A stretch of DNA of 64,000 nucleotides from Paracoccaceae bacterium. GTDB lineage: Bacteria; Pseudomonadota; Alphaproteobacteria; Rhodobacterales; Rhodobacteraceae. Below the pieces are notes generated by a model. That model was given only the letters and a program-made list of their open reading frames with translations, did not search any database and was not told where the DNA came from. Made by a program: the position numbers and the translations under genes. The stretch lies in assembly GCA_020447005.1 (NCBI GenBank), contig JAGRDO010000006.1:63047-127046 (forward strand), written 5' to 3'. Below, piece after piece: positions 1 to 4,942 of the stretch. The stretch's first letter is position 1. Every line of letters begins with the position of its first letter.

Positions 1-1215
1 GATCAGGAACTCGATCGCGTCAGTGGTCCCCATCGGGTTGAGGATCCGGCGAAGCACATAGGTCTTCTGCAGATCGTTCTTGTCGACCAGCAGATCTTCC
101 TTCCGGGTGCCCGATTTCAGAATGTCCATCGCCGGGAAGACGCGTTTGTCGGCCACCTTGCGATCAAGCACGATTTCCGAGTTACCCGTACCCTTGAATT
201 CCTCAAAGATGACTTCGTCCATCCGGCTTCCGGTATCGATCAGCGCCGTTGCGATGATCGTCAGCGAACCACCCTCTTCGATATTCCGCGCGGCGCCGAA
301 GAACCGCTTTGGCCGCTGCAGGGCGTTCGCATCCACACCACCCGTCAAAACCTTGCCAGAGGACGGAACAACAGTGTTGAACGCACGGCCAAGTCTTGTG
401 ATAGAATCCAGAAGAATAACAACATCTCGTTTGTGCTCAACCAGACGCTTCGCCTTCTCGATCACCATTTCCGCCACGGCAACGTGCCGCGTCGCCGGTT
501 CGTCAAAGGTCGATGACACGACTTCACCCTTCACCGAACGCTGCATGTCGGTCACTTCCTCCGGCCGTTCGTCGATAAGAAGCACGATCAGGTAACATTC
601 CGGGTGATTGGTCGCGATGGAATGCGCGATATTCTGCAAAAGCACCGTCTTACCTGTTCGCGGCGGCGCCACGATAAGCCCGCGCTGGCCTTTGCCAATC
701 GGCGCGACAAGGTCGATGATCCGCGCCGAACGGTCACGGATCGTCGGGTCTTCGATCTCCATTTTCAGCCGTTCATCGGGGTAAAGCGGTGTCAGGTTGT
801 CGAACGCAACCTTGTGTCGCGCCTTTTCCGGTTCTTCGAAATTGATCGTTGTCACCTTTGTCAGGGCAAAATACCGTTCGTTCTCACCCGGCGCACGAAT
901 GACCCCTTCGATGGTATCCCCGGTCCGCAACGAATATTGACGCAACATGTCGGGCGACACGTAAATGTCATCGGGGCCCGGCAAGTAGTTCGCCTCAGGC
1001 GACCTGAGGAACCCAAATCCGTCCTGCACAACCTCCAGAACGCCGTCTCCACCGATTTCCCAACCCTCTTCGGCATGTTCCTTGAGGATCGAGAACATCA
1101 TCTCGCCCTTGCGCATGGTCGAGGCATTCTCGATCTCAAGCTCCTCGGCCATCGACAAAAGATCGGCAGGGCTTTTTGCTTTGAGATCGGAAAGATTAAG
1201 GCGCTCTTGGGTCAT
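1..1215 (-). CDS. rho: Transcription termination factor Rho (3' end outside window)
   Basis: Hexameric RNA helicase that ends untranslated transcripts. Reading leftward from the ATG at 1213-1215 gives 405 uninterrupted codons to the window edge, so only the last few residues are missing (the family is about 420 aa). The N-terminus [16 protein letters not shown] is the Rho N-domain; the RNA-binding fold follows at about 55-125. The Walker A is APPRTGKT at residues 183-190, followed by the [13 protein letters not shown] Walker B/Q-loop region and the [16 protein letters not shown]-loop. It points away from the candidate oriC. In alphaproteobacteria rho lies beside hemE/hemJ and mnmE near the origin, which fits. 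Open reading frames on the opposite strand here are shadows. Confidence 0.96.
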
Positions 1216-1339: not shown

Positions 1340-1789
1340 TCAGAATCTGACGATCACCGAGATGACGATCACCACCAGCAGCACGGTCGGAACCTCATTC
1401 ATTATCCGATACGTCCTGCCGGACCGGGTGTTCTCTCCGCGCAGAAAATCCTTGCGGCGGTACCCAAGCCAGTGGTGAAACCAGGTCAACCCAAGAACCC
1501 CCGCCGCCTTTGTCCAGGGCCAGAGCTCGGACCAGTCGACAATCCCCGGCGTAAAGACAAGGGCAAGTCCGAATGTCCAGGTCAGCACCATCGCCGGGTT
1601 CATGATCAGTCTCAGAAGATTTCGCTCCATCTTCTGAAAAAGCCTGTCTGTGTCCCCGCCCCGCTCGACCGCCTCACTGTGATACACAAAGAGCCGCGGC
1701 AAATAGAACAAACCGGCCATCCATGAGATCACGGAAATGACGTGCAACGCCTTTGTCCAAGGATAGATCAAAGCAAGAAAATCCGTCAT
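1340..1789 (-). CDS. hemJ: Protoporphyrinogen IX oxidase, HemJ family
   Basis: Membrane enzyme that oxidises protoporphyrinogen IX to protoporphyrin IX in heme (and chlorophyll) synthesis. The 149-residue protein has four hydrophobic segments, the early WTKALHVISVISWMAG motif with the conserved His, and the C-terminal NEVPTVL motif typical of HemJ. I chose the ATG at 1787-1789 (MTDFLALIYPW) because the family starts there; an in-frame ATG at 1819 would add ten unconserved residues. It is transcribed in the same direction as rho, about 125 bases upstream of it, and away from the candidate replication origin. Confidence 0.93.
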   Translation of the reverse strand: MTDFLALIYPWTKALHVISVISWMAGLFYLPRLFVYHSEAVERGGDTDRLFQKMERNLLRLIMNPAMVLTWTFGLALVFTPGIVDWSELWPWTKAAGVLGLTWFHHWLGYRRKDFLRGENTRSGRTYRIMNEVPTVLLVVIVISVIVRF

Positions 1790-1864
1790 CCGGTCCCCAG
1801 AGGTTGGCAGTCTGACCATCTATTAAGAAAGAAATAGATAGAAAGGAAGTTGATGTTGTTATGG

Positions 1865-1873
1865 TGTGGATAA
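1865..1873 (-). promoter_or_regulatory. DnaA box, perfect consensus
   Basis: Minus-strand TTATCCACA, an exact match to the DnaA consensus. It lies at the right edge of an AT-rich stretch inside the candidate oriC. Confidence 0.75.
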
Positions 1874-1921
1874 CAGGGATAAATCGAATTCTACACCTTT
1901 AACCCACAAGGGGGCCAAGGC

Positions 1922-1930
1922 TGTGCATAA
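1922..1930 (-). promoter_or_regulatory. DnaA box, perfect consensus (TTATGCACA)
   Basis: Minus-strand TTATGCACA matches TTATNCACA exactly. It has the same orientation as the box at 1865 and lies 57 bases away, so the two are on a similar helical face. Confidence 0.72.
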
Positions 1931-2128
1931 CCCTAGGGACAAGGGAAAAACATGCCAGGTAAGAAGTTTTCATTCAATAATATCAGTAAGATAGACAAGA
2001 CCTGGATCGCGGCACCCTATGAATAATCTTGTGTGAAAACACCGGGACAAGCGGGGCTCTACCAGATCGCAGCAAACAGCGTTGCACAGCTGTAAAAAAA
2101 ACAGGTAGGGGGTGGAAACCCGATGGGT

Positions 2129-2137
2129 TTATCCAGA
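2129..2137 (+). promoter_or_regulatory. Weak DnaA box (one mismatch)
   Basis: TTATCCAGA differs from consensus at position 8. Together with ttacccaca at 2192-2200, just before maf, it makes four boxes or near-boxes in about 340 bases. Confidence 0.45.
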
Positions 2138-2213
2138 CGATGAAGGCCCAGCGTCATTCCACCATCACCGATCCACCCGGTTTCCCCGTCTTTACCCACA
2201 ACACAGCACCCAC

Positions 2214-2822
2214 ATGCTAACTGTAGAAAATCCGCTCCTCCTCGCGTCAGGTTCCGAAATTCGCGCCGGTCTGCTGCGCAACGCGGGCGTACCGTTCAAA
2301 ACGATGCCGGCCCGGATTGACGAAGAGGCGCTTCGTCAATCGCTTCGCGCCGAAGGCGCAACGCCCAGAGATCTGAGCGATGCCCTGGCCGAGGCCAAGG
2401 CGCGCAAAGTCTCGGCATCCCATCCCGAAAGCCTGACCCTTGGATGTGACCAGATCCTTTCCTGTGACGGCGAAGTTCTGGACAAACCCGATAATCAGGA
2501 CTCTGCGATCCGAACATTGTCGGCTCTCTCGGGCCGCACGCATCATCTCTTTTCCGCCGCGGTCGCCTATCAGCACGGAAAGCCGATCTGGCGTCACATT
2601 GGCCATGTCAGGCTGACAATGGTCGAGCTTCCGCCCGACTACATCCGCTCATATGTCTCCACCTATTGGGATGAGATCCGGCACTGCGTCGGATGCTACC
2701 GGCTCGAGGCGGAAGGGGTGCGCCTTATCTCACACATCGACGGCGACTATTTTCATGTTCTTGGCCTGCCGCTAACAGAGCTCTTGACCTGGCTGCGGCT
2801 TCGGGGCGACATCACGCCATGA
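2214..2822 (+). CDS. maf: Maf-like nucleotide pyrophosphatase
   Basis: Hydrolyses non-canonical or modified nucleoside triphosphates (house-cleaning dNTP/UTP pyrophosphatase) in the cytoplasm. The 202-residue protein begins MLTVENPLLLASGSEIR, the LASxSxxR nucleotide-binding motif of the family, and has the acidic TLGCDQILSCDGE segment. I place the start at 2214 because upstream in-frame sequence runs through the candidate oriC and shows no family similarity. The stop overlaps the aroE start (ATGA). It is the first gene of the rightward maf-aroE-coaE-dnaQ operon, an arrangement conserved beside the origin in many alphaproteobacteria. Confidence 0.92.
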   Translation: MLTVENPLLLASGSEIRAGLLRNAGVPFKTMPARIDEEALRQSLRAEGATPRDLSDALAEAKARKVSASHPESLTLGCDQILSCDGEVLDKPDNQDSAIRTLSALSGRTHHLFSAAVAYQHGKPIWRHIGHVRLTMVELPPDYIRSYVSTYWDEIRHCVGCYRLEAEGVRLISHIDGDYFHVLGLPLTELLTWLRLRGDITP

Positions 2823-3658
2823 ACAGCCATCCGCGTATCCCGCTCGCAGGCGTCATCGGCTCGCCGGTCGCGCATTCCCGCTCGCCGCTTCTGCATCGCC
2901 ACTGGCTGAAGCGTTACGGTATCCAAGGGTATTACATCCCTATGGACGTCGCGCAGGCTGACCTGCGCGAGGTGATATCCGCGCTGCCCAAAGCGGGTTT
3001 CGTGGGCGTGAATGTCACCATACCGCACAAGGAAACGGTTCTTGCGCTCGCGGATATCGTGACCGACCGGGCCGCACTAATCGGCGCGGCCAATACGCTC
3101 ATCTTTCGCAAGGATGGGCGCATCCACGCCGATAATACCGACGGCTTCGGTTTCATCGCAAATCTTCGCCAGAATGCAACCGGATGGTCGCCGACGGCAG
3201 GGGCGGCCGCAGTGATCGGGGCGGGCGGCGCCGCGCGCGCTGTCATCGCATCGCTGATCGAAGTCGGAGCGCCGGAAATTCGCCTTGCCAACCGAACCCG
3301 CGCCCGCGCCGAAGCGTTGCGGCAGGAATTCGGGGCAAAGGTCGTCGTTTATGATTGGGTGCAGGCCGGCAACATGATGGACGGCGCGGCGACGGTGGTA
3401 AACACATCGTCGCTGGGAATGGAGGGCAAGCCCGAGTTTCGCGTGCCCCTTGACGCCCTGTCCCGCAACGCGGTGGTAAGCGATCTGGTCTATACGCCCC
3501 TCAGAACGCATTTTCTTGAACAGGCGGCAGAAATCGGCTGCGTGACTGTCGACGGCCTGGGAATGCTGATTCACCAGGCAGCACCTGCATTCGAACGGTG
3601 GTTCGGCACCAGACCAGAGGTTGACCAGACCACACGTGACGTGGTTCTGGCCGGATGA
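2819..3658 (+). CDS. aroE: Shikimate dehydrogenase
   Basis: NADP-dependent reduction of 3-dehydroshikimate to shikimate in aromatic amino acid synthesis. The 279-residue protein shows the substrate motif GSPVAHSRSPLLH at 14-26, the catalytic Lys71 in TIPHKET, the substrate-binding NTD at 106-108, and the NADP glycine loop GAGGAAR at 134-140. The C-terminal GLGMLIHQAAPAFERWFG is the usual family ending. The start at 2819 forms an ATGA overlap with maf; longer in-frame starts lie inside maf and are not needed. The stop overlaps coaE the same way, so the three genes are probably translationally coupled. Confidence 0.96.
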   Translation: MNSHPRIPLAGVIGSPVAHSRSPLLHRHWLKRYGIQGYYIPMDVAQADLREVISALPKAGFVGVNVTIPHKETVLALADIVTDRAALIGAANTLIFRKDGRIHADNTDGFGFIANLRQNATGWSPTAGAAAVIGAGGAARAVIASLIEVGAPEIRLANRTRARAEALRQEFGAKVVVYDWVQAGNMMDGAATVVNTSSLGMEGKPEFRVPLDALSRNAVVSDLVYTPLRTHFLEQAAEIGCVTVDGLGMLIHQAAPAFERWFGTRPEVDQTTRDVVLAG

Positions 3659-4257
3659 CCCGGCCCTTTCTGCTCGGGTTGACCGGTTCGATCGGGATGG
3701 GCAAATCCACCACATCCGCAATGTTCCGCGACGCGGGCATCCCCGTCTGGGATGCCGATGCAACCGTTCACCGCCTGTATTCCGCCAATGGCGAGGCTGT
3801 AACGGGAATTTCCGAAATCTGCCCCGAAGCCATTCGCTCTGACGCGGTCGACCGCAATGTCCTTTCCCGCTGCATAGCGGACGATCCTGGCCTGCTGGGC
3901 AGGATCGAAGCCATCGTTCATCCGCTGACCGCTGTCGATCGCAACCGGTTTATCGCCGACGCCGGGGAGCGGGGCGATCCGCTTGTCGTTCTGGACATTC
4001 CGCTTTTGTTCGAAACAGGCGCGGACCGGTTTGTCGACGCGATTGTTGTCGTATCCGCCCCGAAGGAGGTTCAGCGCAAAAGGGTCTTGGACCGTCCGGG
4101 AATGACCGAGGAGAAATTCAGGGCCATTCTCGGAAGGCAGCTTCCCGATGACGAAAAAAGACGCAAGGCAAACTACGTCATCGAAACGCATAGCCTTGAT
4201 CAAACCCGCATGGCGGTGCAGAATCTGATCGACACTATTCTGGCTGAAAATGCGTGA
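3655..4257 (+). CDS. coaE: Dephospho-CoA kinase
   Basis: Phosphorylates dephospho-CoA in the last step of coenzyme A synthesis. The 200-residue length is normal. The P-loop is GLTGSIGMGKSTT at residues 8-20, followed by the WDADATVHRLY substrate motif and the IPLLFETG segment. It overlaps aroE by four bases (ATGA) and dnaQ by eight, in the rightward operon leaving the candidate origin. Confidence 0.95.
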   Translation: MTRPFLLGLTGSIGMGKSTTSAMFRDAGIPVWDADATVHRLYSANGEAVTGISEICPEAIRSDAVDRNVLSRCIADDPGLLGRIEAIVHPLTAVDRNRFIADAGERGDPLVVLDIPLLFETGADRFVDAIVVVSAPKEVQRKRVLDRPGMTEEKFRAILGRQLPDDEKRRKANYVIETHSLDQTRMAVQNLIDTILAENA

Positions 4258-4942
4258 AATCGTCCTTGATACCGAGACAACCGGTTTTGAGCCCGCCGAG
4301 GGCGACCGCATCGTCGAAATCGGCGCAATCGAGCTGTTCAACCACCTACCAACCGGTCGAAGCTATCACCAGTATATCAACCCCGAACGTTCGATGCCGG
4401 CGGCCGCGTTCGAAGTTCATGGGCTGGGGGACGATTTCCTGCGCGACAAGCCTGTATTCGCGGCCATTGCAGACGAGTTCATAGACTTCGTCGGAAAGGA
4501 CGCCAAGCTGGTGATCCACAATGCGTCCTTCGACATGAAGTTCCTGAATGCCGAACTTGGCTGGGCCGGGCGCCCGCTCCTTCCGCCCGACTGCGCGATT
4601 GATACCGTGGCAATGGCCAGACGACGGTTCCCCGGTTCGCCTGCCTCGCTCGACGCGCTCTGCCGCCGCTTTGGCATCGACAATTCGCGCCGCGAAAAAC
4701 ACGGCGCATTGCTCGACAGCGAGCTGCTTGCCGAAGTTTACCTGCAACTGATCGGCGGGCAGCAACCGGATTTCGGGTTGACGACAACGCAGGGCAGCAG
4801 CTCGGCGGTGTCCGAGCCATCCTGGCGCCCGGAACCCAGGACGGTGCGGCTGTTTCCACGACTGACCGCCGAAGAAAAGCGCGCGCATGAAGAGTTTGTC
4901 GCGAAGCTTGGCGAAAACGCAATCTGGCGCCGCTTTGGCTAG
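4250..4942 (+). CDS. dnaQ: DNA polymerase III epsilon subunit (proofreading exonuclease)
   Basis: 3'-5' exonuclease subunit of the replicative polymerase. The 230-residue protein has the DEDDh signature: Exo I DTETTG with D7 and E9, Exo II HNASFDMKF, and the Exo III region HGALLDSELLAEVY. The C-terminal part after about 185 would carry the alpha-subunit contact. It overlaps coaE by eight bases and is the last gene of the operon; the next gene is convergent with its stop immediately adjacent. In related genomes secB commonly follows dnaQ; here secB lies about 26 kb away. Confidence 0.95.
   Translation: MREIVLDTETTGFEPAEGDRIVEIGAIELFNHLPTGRSYHQYINPERSMPAAAFEVHGLGDDFLRDKPVFAAIADEFIDFVGKDAKLVIHNASFDMKFLNAELGWAGRPLLPPDCAIDTVAMARRRFPGSPASLDALCRRFGIDNSRREKHGALLDSELLAEVYLQLIGGQQPDFGLTTTQGSSSAVSEPSWRPEPRTVRLFPRLTAEEKRAHEEFVAKLGENAIWRRFG

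Follow-up and report, generated by a model that had tools for sequence, protein, structure and literature searches.

The window analysed here, the whole stretch of 64 kb, corresponds to C91:63047-127046 in a draft genome of 196 contigs (3.5 Mb, 91% complete). Near its left end, hemJ and maf diverge from a common intergenic region, as the earlier note had described, with rho beyond hemJ and with aroE, coaE and a dnaQ-like exonuclease gene beyond maf (Table 1); the start codon of rho was picked from similarity to relatives. The AT-rich tracts reported for this gap are also evident from its composition, with a GC content of 0.481 versus 0.62-0.63 on the two contig flanks, and elsewhere on the 130-kb contig, 424-base windows with a GC content as low are confined to a single stretch, C91:3014-3794. 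The description of the gap as the largest in the window was not confirmed: a crude gene call listed longer gaps, but this call misses real genes (part of rho remained uncalled). GANTC methylation sites are absent from the gap of our genome and average 1.3 per gap across the aligned gaps of its relatives.

Table 1. Genes and sequence features at the hemJ-maf locus, in window coordinates; column counts refer to 90 aligned hemJ-maf gaps.
Feature	Position	Strand	Remarks
rho	1..1215	-	Pfam Rho_N, Rho_RNA_bind; truncated by the window start
hemJ (UPF0093)	1340..1789	-	Pfam PF03653
hemJ-maf intergenic region, proposed oriC	1790..2213	none	424 bp; four DnaA boxes; GC 0.48
AT-rich, purine-rich tract, proposed unwinding region	1815..1860	none	72% AT; adjoins first DnaA box
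DnaA box TTATCCACA, perfect	1865..1873	-	box (<=2 mismatches) at aligned column in 52/90 gaps
Weak DnaA box TAACCCACA, 2 mismatches	1900..1908	+	conserved column, 51/90 gaps
DnaA box TTATGCACA, 1 mismatch	1922..1930	-	column box in 44/90 gaps
IHF-like site TATCAGTAAGATA	1981..1993	+	1 mismatch to WATCARNNNNTTR; mid-gap
Weak DnaA box TTATTCATA, 2 mismatches	2018..2026	-	conserved column, 56/90 gaps
DnaA box TTATCCAGA, 1 mismatch	2129..2137	+	column box in 27/90 gaps
DnaA box TTACCCACA, 1 mismatch	2192..2200	+	13 bases 5' of maf start; column box in 48/90 gaps
maf	2214..2822	+	Pfam PF02545
aroE	2822..3658	+	Pfam shikimate dehydrogenase domains
coaE	3655..4257	+	Pfam PF01121
dnaQ-like exonuclease	4250..4942	+	Pfam PF00929

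DnaA boxes were defined by the consensus TTATCCACA and, in a looser form, by TTATNCACA. The earlier note had counted two perfect boxes and two with one mismatch in the gap; the perfect box at 1865-1873 and the one-mismatch boxes at 2129-2137 and 2192-2200 stand, whereas the box at 1922-1930 departs from TTATCCACA at one position and matches TTATNCACA, so that there is one perfect box rather than two. With up to one mismatch allowed, the 64-kb window contains six boxes (shuffled mean 4.14), four of which fall inside the 424-base gap, and 200 shuffles of the gap itself gave a mean of 0.16 boxes, none of them reaching four. The gap is likewise the densest such cluster on the 130-kb contig C91, the next best stretch of about 430 bp holding a single box, and the cluster at the gap also exceeds the next best one in the sampled DNA of G014 (four versus two; 800 kb), G024 (six versus two; 840 kb) and G033 (five versus three; 422 kb). 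Clustering at the genome-wide scale is claimed for TTATNCACA sites and not for one-mismatch sites: the whole 3.5-Mb draft contains 19 of the former (20 in the reversed control), and the sole neighbouring pair is that of the gap, 57 bp apart, the next same-contig pair being about 7 kb apart, with about 0.006 such close pairs expected by arithmetic. That words resembling DnaA boxes had gathered by chance in a gap of higher AT content would be in line with the one-mismatch words, which show no genome-wide enrichment (227 in the whole draft versus 289 in the reversed control), but it is at odds with the shuffles of the gap and contradicted by the recurrence of box columns across 90 gaps described below, and we find it hardly credible at all.

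A Maf relative is present in 76 of 81 genomes, and 30 of the corresponding loci, our own among them, were compared. The order rho-hemJ-gap-maf was found in 28 loci, the gap measuring 376-436 bp, and L027 and L031, the remaining two, yielded no hemJ between rho and maf. In a scan of named genomes, which covered the best 80 of 209 HemJ relatives and partly the same genomes as the 30 loci, hemJ was accompanied by a divergent maf and an adjoining rho in 79 of 80 cases, maf not being found in the examined flank of the remaining locus (L255). Every one of the 79 gaps from these best 80 relatives is AT-richer than its own locus; at least two boxes with no more than one mismatch occur in 62 of them and at least three in 37, and a single gap has none. 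Taken together, the 30 gaps contain 92 boxes versus a shuffled mean of 3.3 and a maximum of 8, with only one box of up to one mismatch in four gaps. For the column alignment, 107 hemJ-maf gaps were reduced to 90 non-redundant ones, and both the length and the box columns of the gap proved to be kept in relatives. At each of six column/strand sites, spread over approximately 330 bp, between 44 and 65 of the 90 gaps carry a box (<=2 mismatches), compared with a median of 1 over alignment columns with any box, and it is not only the columns but also the strands of the boxes that recur. The gap is also conserved inside the genus of our organism.

Conserved boxes between divergent genes could, in principle, be operators, at which DnaA acts as a transcription factor on the hemJ and maf promoters and no replication starts. 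Such a role would suit the divergence of the two genes and the box 13 bases 5' of the maf start, the column of which is conserved, and gene regulation by DnaA is known, according to the abstract of one report (PMC8203912). However, promoters would not need as much as is present here, namely box columns conserved at six sites on both strands and covering about 330 bp, a block rich in AT, adjacent parS and skew minima in two relatives, which makes a purely regulatory array very unlikely indeed. The conserved box just 5' of the maf start might, as a separate matter, allow DnaA to regulate maf as well.

The mid-gap IHF-like site differs at one position from WATCARNNNNTTR, which we take to be the IHF consensus. 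Exact matches to these letters number nine in the 30 gaps, versus a shuffled mean of 1.05 and a maximum of 5, and eight of the nine are located at gap positions 184-201, the copy in our gap being imperfect. The CtrA site TTAA-N7-TTAA has exact matches in two of the 30 gaps and none within one mismatch in our own, where the best candidate carries two mismatches. An AT-rich region beside the boxes, one of the criteria for an origin, is recognizable on composition alone in the tract preceding the first box, which closes with a G-periodic triplet run (1846-1860, GAA GTT GAT GTT GTT). Of the 90 gaps, 76 contain at least three G[AT][TGA] triplets in a row, as opposed to 16.9 on average and at most 24 after shuffling. 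Literal GAT runs of at least three occur in 25 of these gaps, our own not being among them, versus an average of 0.09 in shuffled sequence; the loose DnaA-trio rule (.A.){3,} is satisfied by 89 of 90 gaps versus a shuffled mean of 86.7 and is uninformative in an A-rich tract. The trio repeat of Bacillus subtilis has the strand sense 5'-TAG. Read toward the box, the repeat here is 5'-GAT, whereas that of B. subtilis is 5'-TAG, which equals 3'-GAT-5'. The two share the placing of a DnaA box beside a triplet repeat, as described for the B. subtilis BUS in the consulted portions of two papers (PMC8287927, PMC6669920). It is conceivable, if rather doubtful, that the Rhodobacteraceae origin has itself kept its place after the loss of hemE and ppsR and employs a lineage-specific variant of the DnaA-trio unwinding element, a G-periodic run with the consensus 5'-GATGATGATGTAGG; in such a variant, proposed just as tentatively, the run would precede the first DnaA box, be degenerate (GTT/GAT) in our genome and differ from B. 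subtilis in phase or polarity.

Searching with the letters that we take to be the parS consensus, we identified exactly two exact parS sites in our draft, at C91:61647 and 59745, both outside the window and to the left (rho side) of the gap, at distances of 3.2 and 5.1 kb. In our own genome, where the gene order was examined, rho is followed to the left on C91 by mnmE, mnmG, rsmG, parA and parB. Both parS and parAB, the proximity of which is a criterion for oriC, are found near the gap, parAB having been identified in our genome itself. Among 12 relatives, exact parS sites number two in 11 genomes and one in G038, with none elsewhere, and all lie 3-6 kb from maf; the same confinement applies to nine same-genus genomes including our own. 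As a side note, the parS palindrome at C91:59745 and 61647 opens with the nine letters TGTTTCACG, a word used as the Rhodobacteraceae DnaA-box motif in the part consulted of an earlier study (PMC6699656), where the motif probably counts parS sites.

The vicinity of dnaA was considered as an alternative location and rejected. Neither G014 nor the sampled G024 DNA has a cluster of at least three boxes near dnaA. On our own dnaA contig, C78, three boxes with up to one mismatch are scattered, none being closer than 4 kb to dnaA, among the 100 of 227 matches listed, which reach up to C92 and hence cover C78. In the six of seven relatives that have both genes on one contig, dnaA and maf are separated by 81 to about 311 kb. 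The side of the gap on which dnaA is found varies among G002, G003, G014, G024, G030 and G033, a pattern suggestive of recurrent inversion in the neighbourhood of the origin.

In two closed relatives, the cumulative GC skew has a local minimum at the gap or in its vicinity. In G024, a single contig, the local cumulative minimum of a contiguous 100 kb is at 3,475,899, less than 2 kb from the end of the gap at about 3,477,834. Between 1.62 and 3.42 Mb, all 11 samples are negative; of the 28 that run from 3.50 Mb across zero to 1.44 Mb, 24 are positive, and the sample ending just beyond the gap has a skew near zero. A minimum about 500 kb from maf, obtained in this genome from a coarse set of 20 stretches, was dismissed as sampling noise upon denser sampling and inspection of the contiguous 100 kb. 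In G033, the local minimum of a contiguous 162 kb is at 1,163,224, about 18 kb from the gap; the floor is flat until the gap, and a steady rise starts there, at about 1,181,100. Among 17 samples of this chromosome, the six before the gap and the last three are negative, and seven of the eight between the gap and 3.2 Mb are positive, the remaining one being -0.002. The family member G030 displays positive skew on both sides of the gap and no local flip, and the skew of G038 fits weakly with an origin at the gap.

Within the genus of our organism, the picture is less regular. Our own contig has a GC skew of -0.0285 to the left and -0.0382 to the right of the gap, with no flip over 130 kb, and the third-position skew, computed from the crude gene call and split by strand, does not flip either. 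The latter result speaks against attributing the odd skew to biased gene orientation, and a rearrangement just right of dnaQ was likewise rejected, as C91 is collinear with the same-genus genome G014 from about 52.5 to 115 kb. This collinearity stops about 12 kb to the left of the gap and extends about 50 kb to its right. The maf side (2214-64000 in the window; C91 from 65.3 kb onward) has a skew of -0.038, more negative than the collinear part of G014. G014, which is closed, is two-armed and ambiguous, with a low zone from -141 kb to +93 kb of its coordinates and maf at 92-93 kb; the low beside the gap is shallow, and the contiguous 340 kb reaches a deeper, lowest point some 234 kb off, on the maf side. 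Skews within about 80 kb in seven further genomes of the genus (four stretches each) are near zero and mixed.

These data bear on the main rival explanation, namely, a displacement of the active origin in this genus by tens to hundreds of kb toward maf and beyond, which would leave the gap as a relic or a DnaA-titration site. A shift of this kind would account for the missing flip on our contig, the distant minimum of G014 and the weak, mixed skews of the seven additional genomes. Yet the contiguous 340 kb of G014, far minimum included, contains no other cluster of at least three boxes, the gap stays conserved inside the genus, exact parS sites keep their confinement to the neighbourhood of maf in all nine same-genus genomes, and the boxes listed for our own dnaA contig are scattered away from dnaA. 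We therefore regard a moved origin as quite unlikely. Instead, we read the skew near the origin as weak or disturbed within our genus, because the 340 kb of G014 that span the two lows hold no other cluster of at least three boxes and because parS stays beside maf.

The classical flanking genes of the Caulobacter origin, ppsR and hemE, were searched for in six of 32 other-family genomes. Five of them (G057, G060, G062, G063 and G075) have the order hemE-gap-ppsR-maf, and in the sixth (G052) ppsR adjoins maf and hemE is on a separate contig. By contrast, ppsR was not found in our own 91% complete draft (G000) or in G014, G024 and G033, and hemE is away from the gap in all four, on contig C63 in our genome; the search controls, Caulobacter included, gave matches for both families. 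In Caulobacter, maf presumably comes next after ppsR. The place of the gap relative to maf is thus the same as in this Caulobacter-type order, even though both classical flanking genes are gone from it.

The Caulobacter origin is flanked by hemE and COG1806, as stated in the section covered of PMC1914354. Similar to the gap described here, Cori of Caulobacter crescentus carries several DnaA boxes and is AT-richer than the genome, and it contains an IHF-like site (PMC1914354, PMC4285127, in the excerpts available to us), to which the imperfect mid-gap site may correspond. Nevertheless, we do not file the gap as a strict Caulobacter-type Cori, given that it is flanked by hemJ and maf rather than by hemE and COG1806/ppsR and that the CtrA sites of Cori have no counterpart within one mismatch. 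For Hyphomonas neptunium, the part consulted of PMC6650430 reports a marker-frequency peak near hemE, with parAB about 7 kb from hemE and two parS sites. The likeness extends to the pair of parS sites and to parAB being on the same side as these; the difference is that the origin region of H. neptunium, near hemE, was measured, whereas here we infer it and hemE is not adjacent. Within the family and order, oriC has been assigned in 101 Rhodobacteraceae strains from skew, boxes and parAB (PMC6699656), and one unambiguous origin was recognized in 70 of 147 closed Rhodobacterales genomes (PMC9836097), according to the portions covered of both papers. These Ori-Finder predictions draw on the same kinds of evidence as ours, and hemJ and maf are not given as flanks in the passages covered; maf is a listed Ori-Finder indicator gene in the consulted part of PMC3794950. 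Our literature search of listings and passages found no paper naming hemJ and maf as origin flanks, which does not prove that there is none.

Collectively, the clustering of boxes and their conserved columns, the nearby parS and parAB, the local skew minima in two closed relatives and a place relative to maf that is the same as in Caulobacter bear out the proposal of the earlier note, and we conclude that the chromosomal oriC is very probably the hemJ-maf gap (1790-2213). As such, the gap would be a conserved, ordinary representative of a known type of origin and not a new system, and Rhodobacteraceae origins have already been predicted in bulk. From the sequence comparisons, we infer protein binding, strand opening and replication start at the gap, as well as segregation and dosage, as follows. 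DnaA-ATP would bind the box array, probably assisted by bending at the mid-gap IHF-like site, and, beginning with the box at 1865-1873, would extend along the neighbouring tract, rich in purines and AT (1815-1860), and open it. Two helicases could then be loaded onto the opened tract, with forks departing both ways, and the new copies would be separated by ParB, which would occupy the pair of parS sites on the rho side, 3-5 kb off.

With the origin in the gap, the region from 2.2 to 64 kb would therefore lie on one replichore near the origin, in which case the xyl, tct and cob clusters may be present at high dosage. The gap also offers a zero point for the draft chromosome, and in the conserved triplet run there is a modest, testable clue to the opening of such origins. 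For the family, these observations suggest a rule to be tested, whereby the origin is to be sought in the hemJ-maf interval, at a distance of a few kb from parS, and not at dnaA or hemE.
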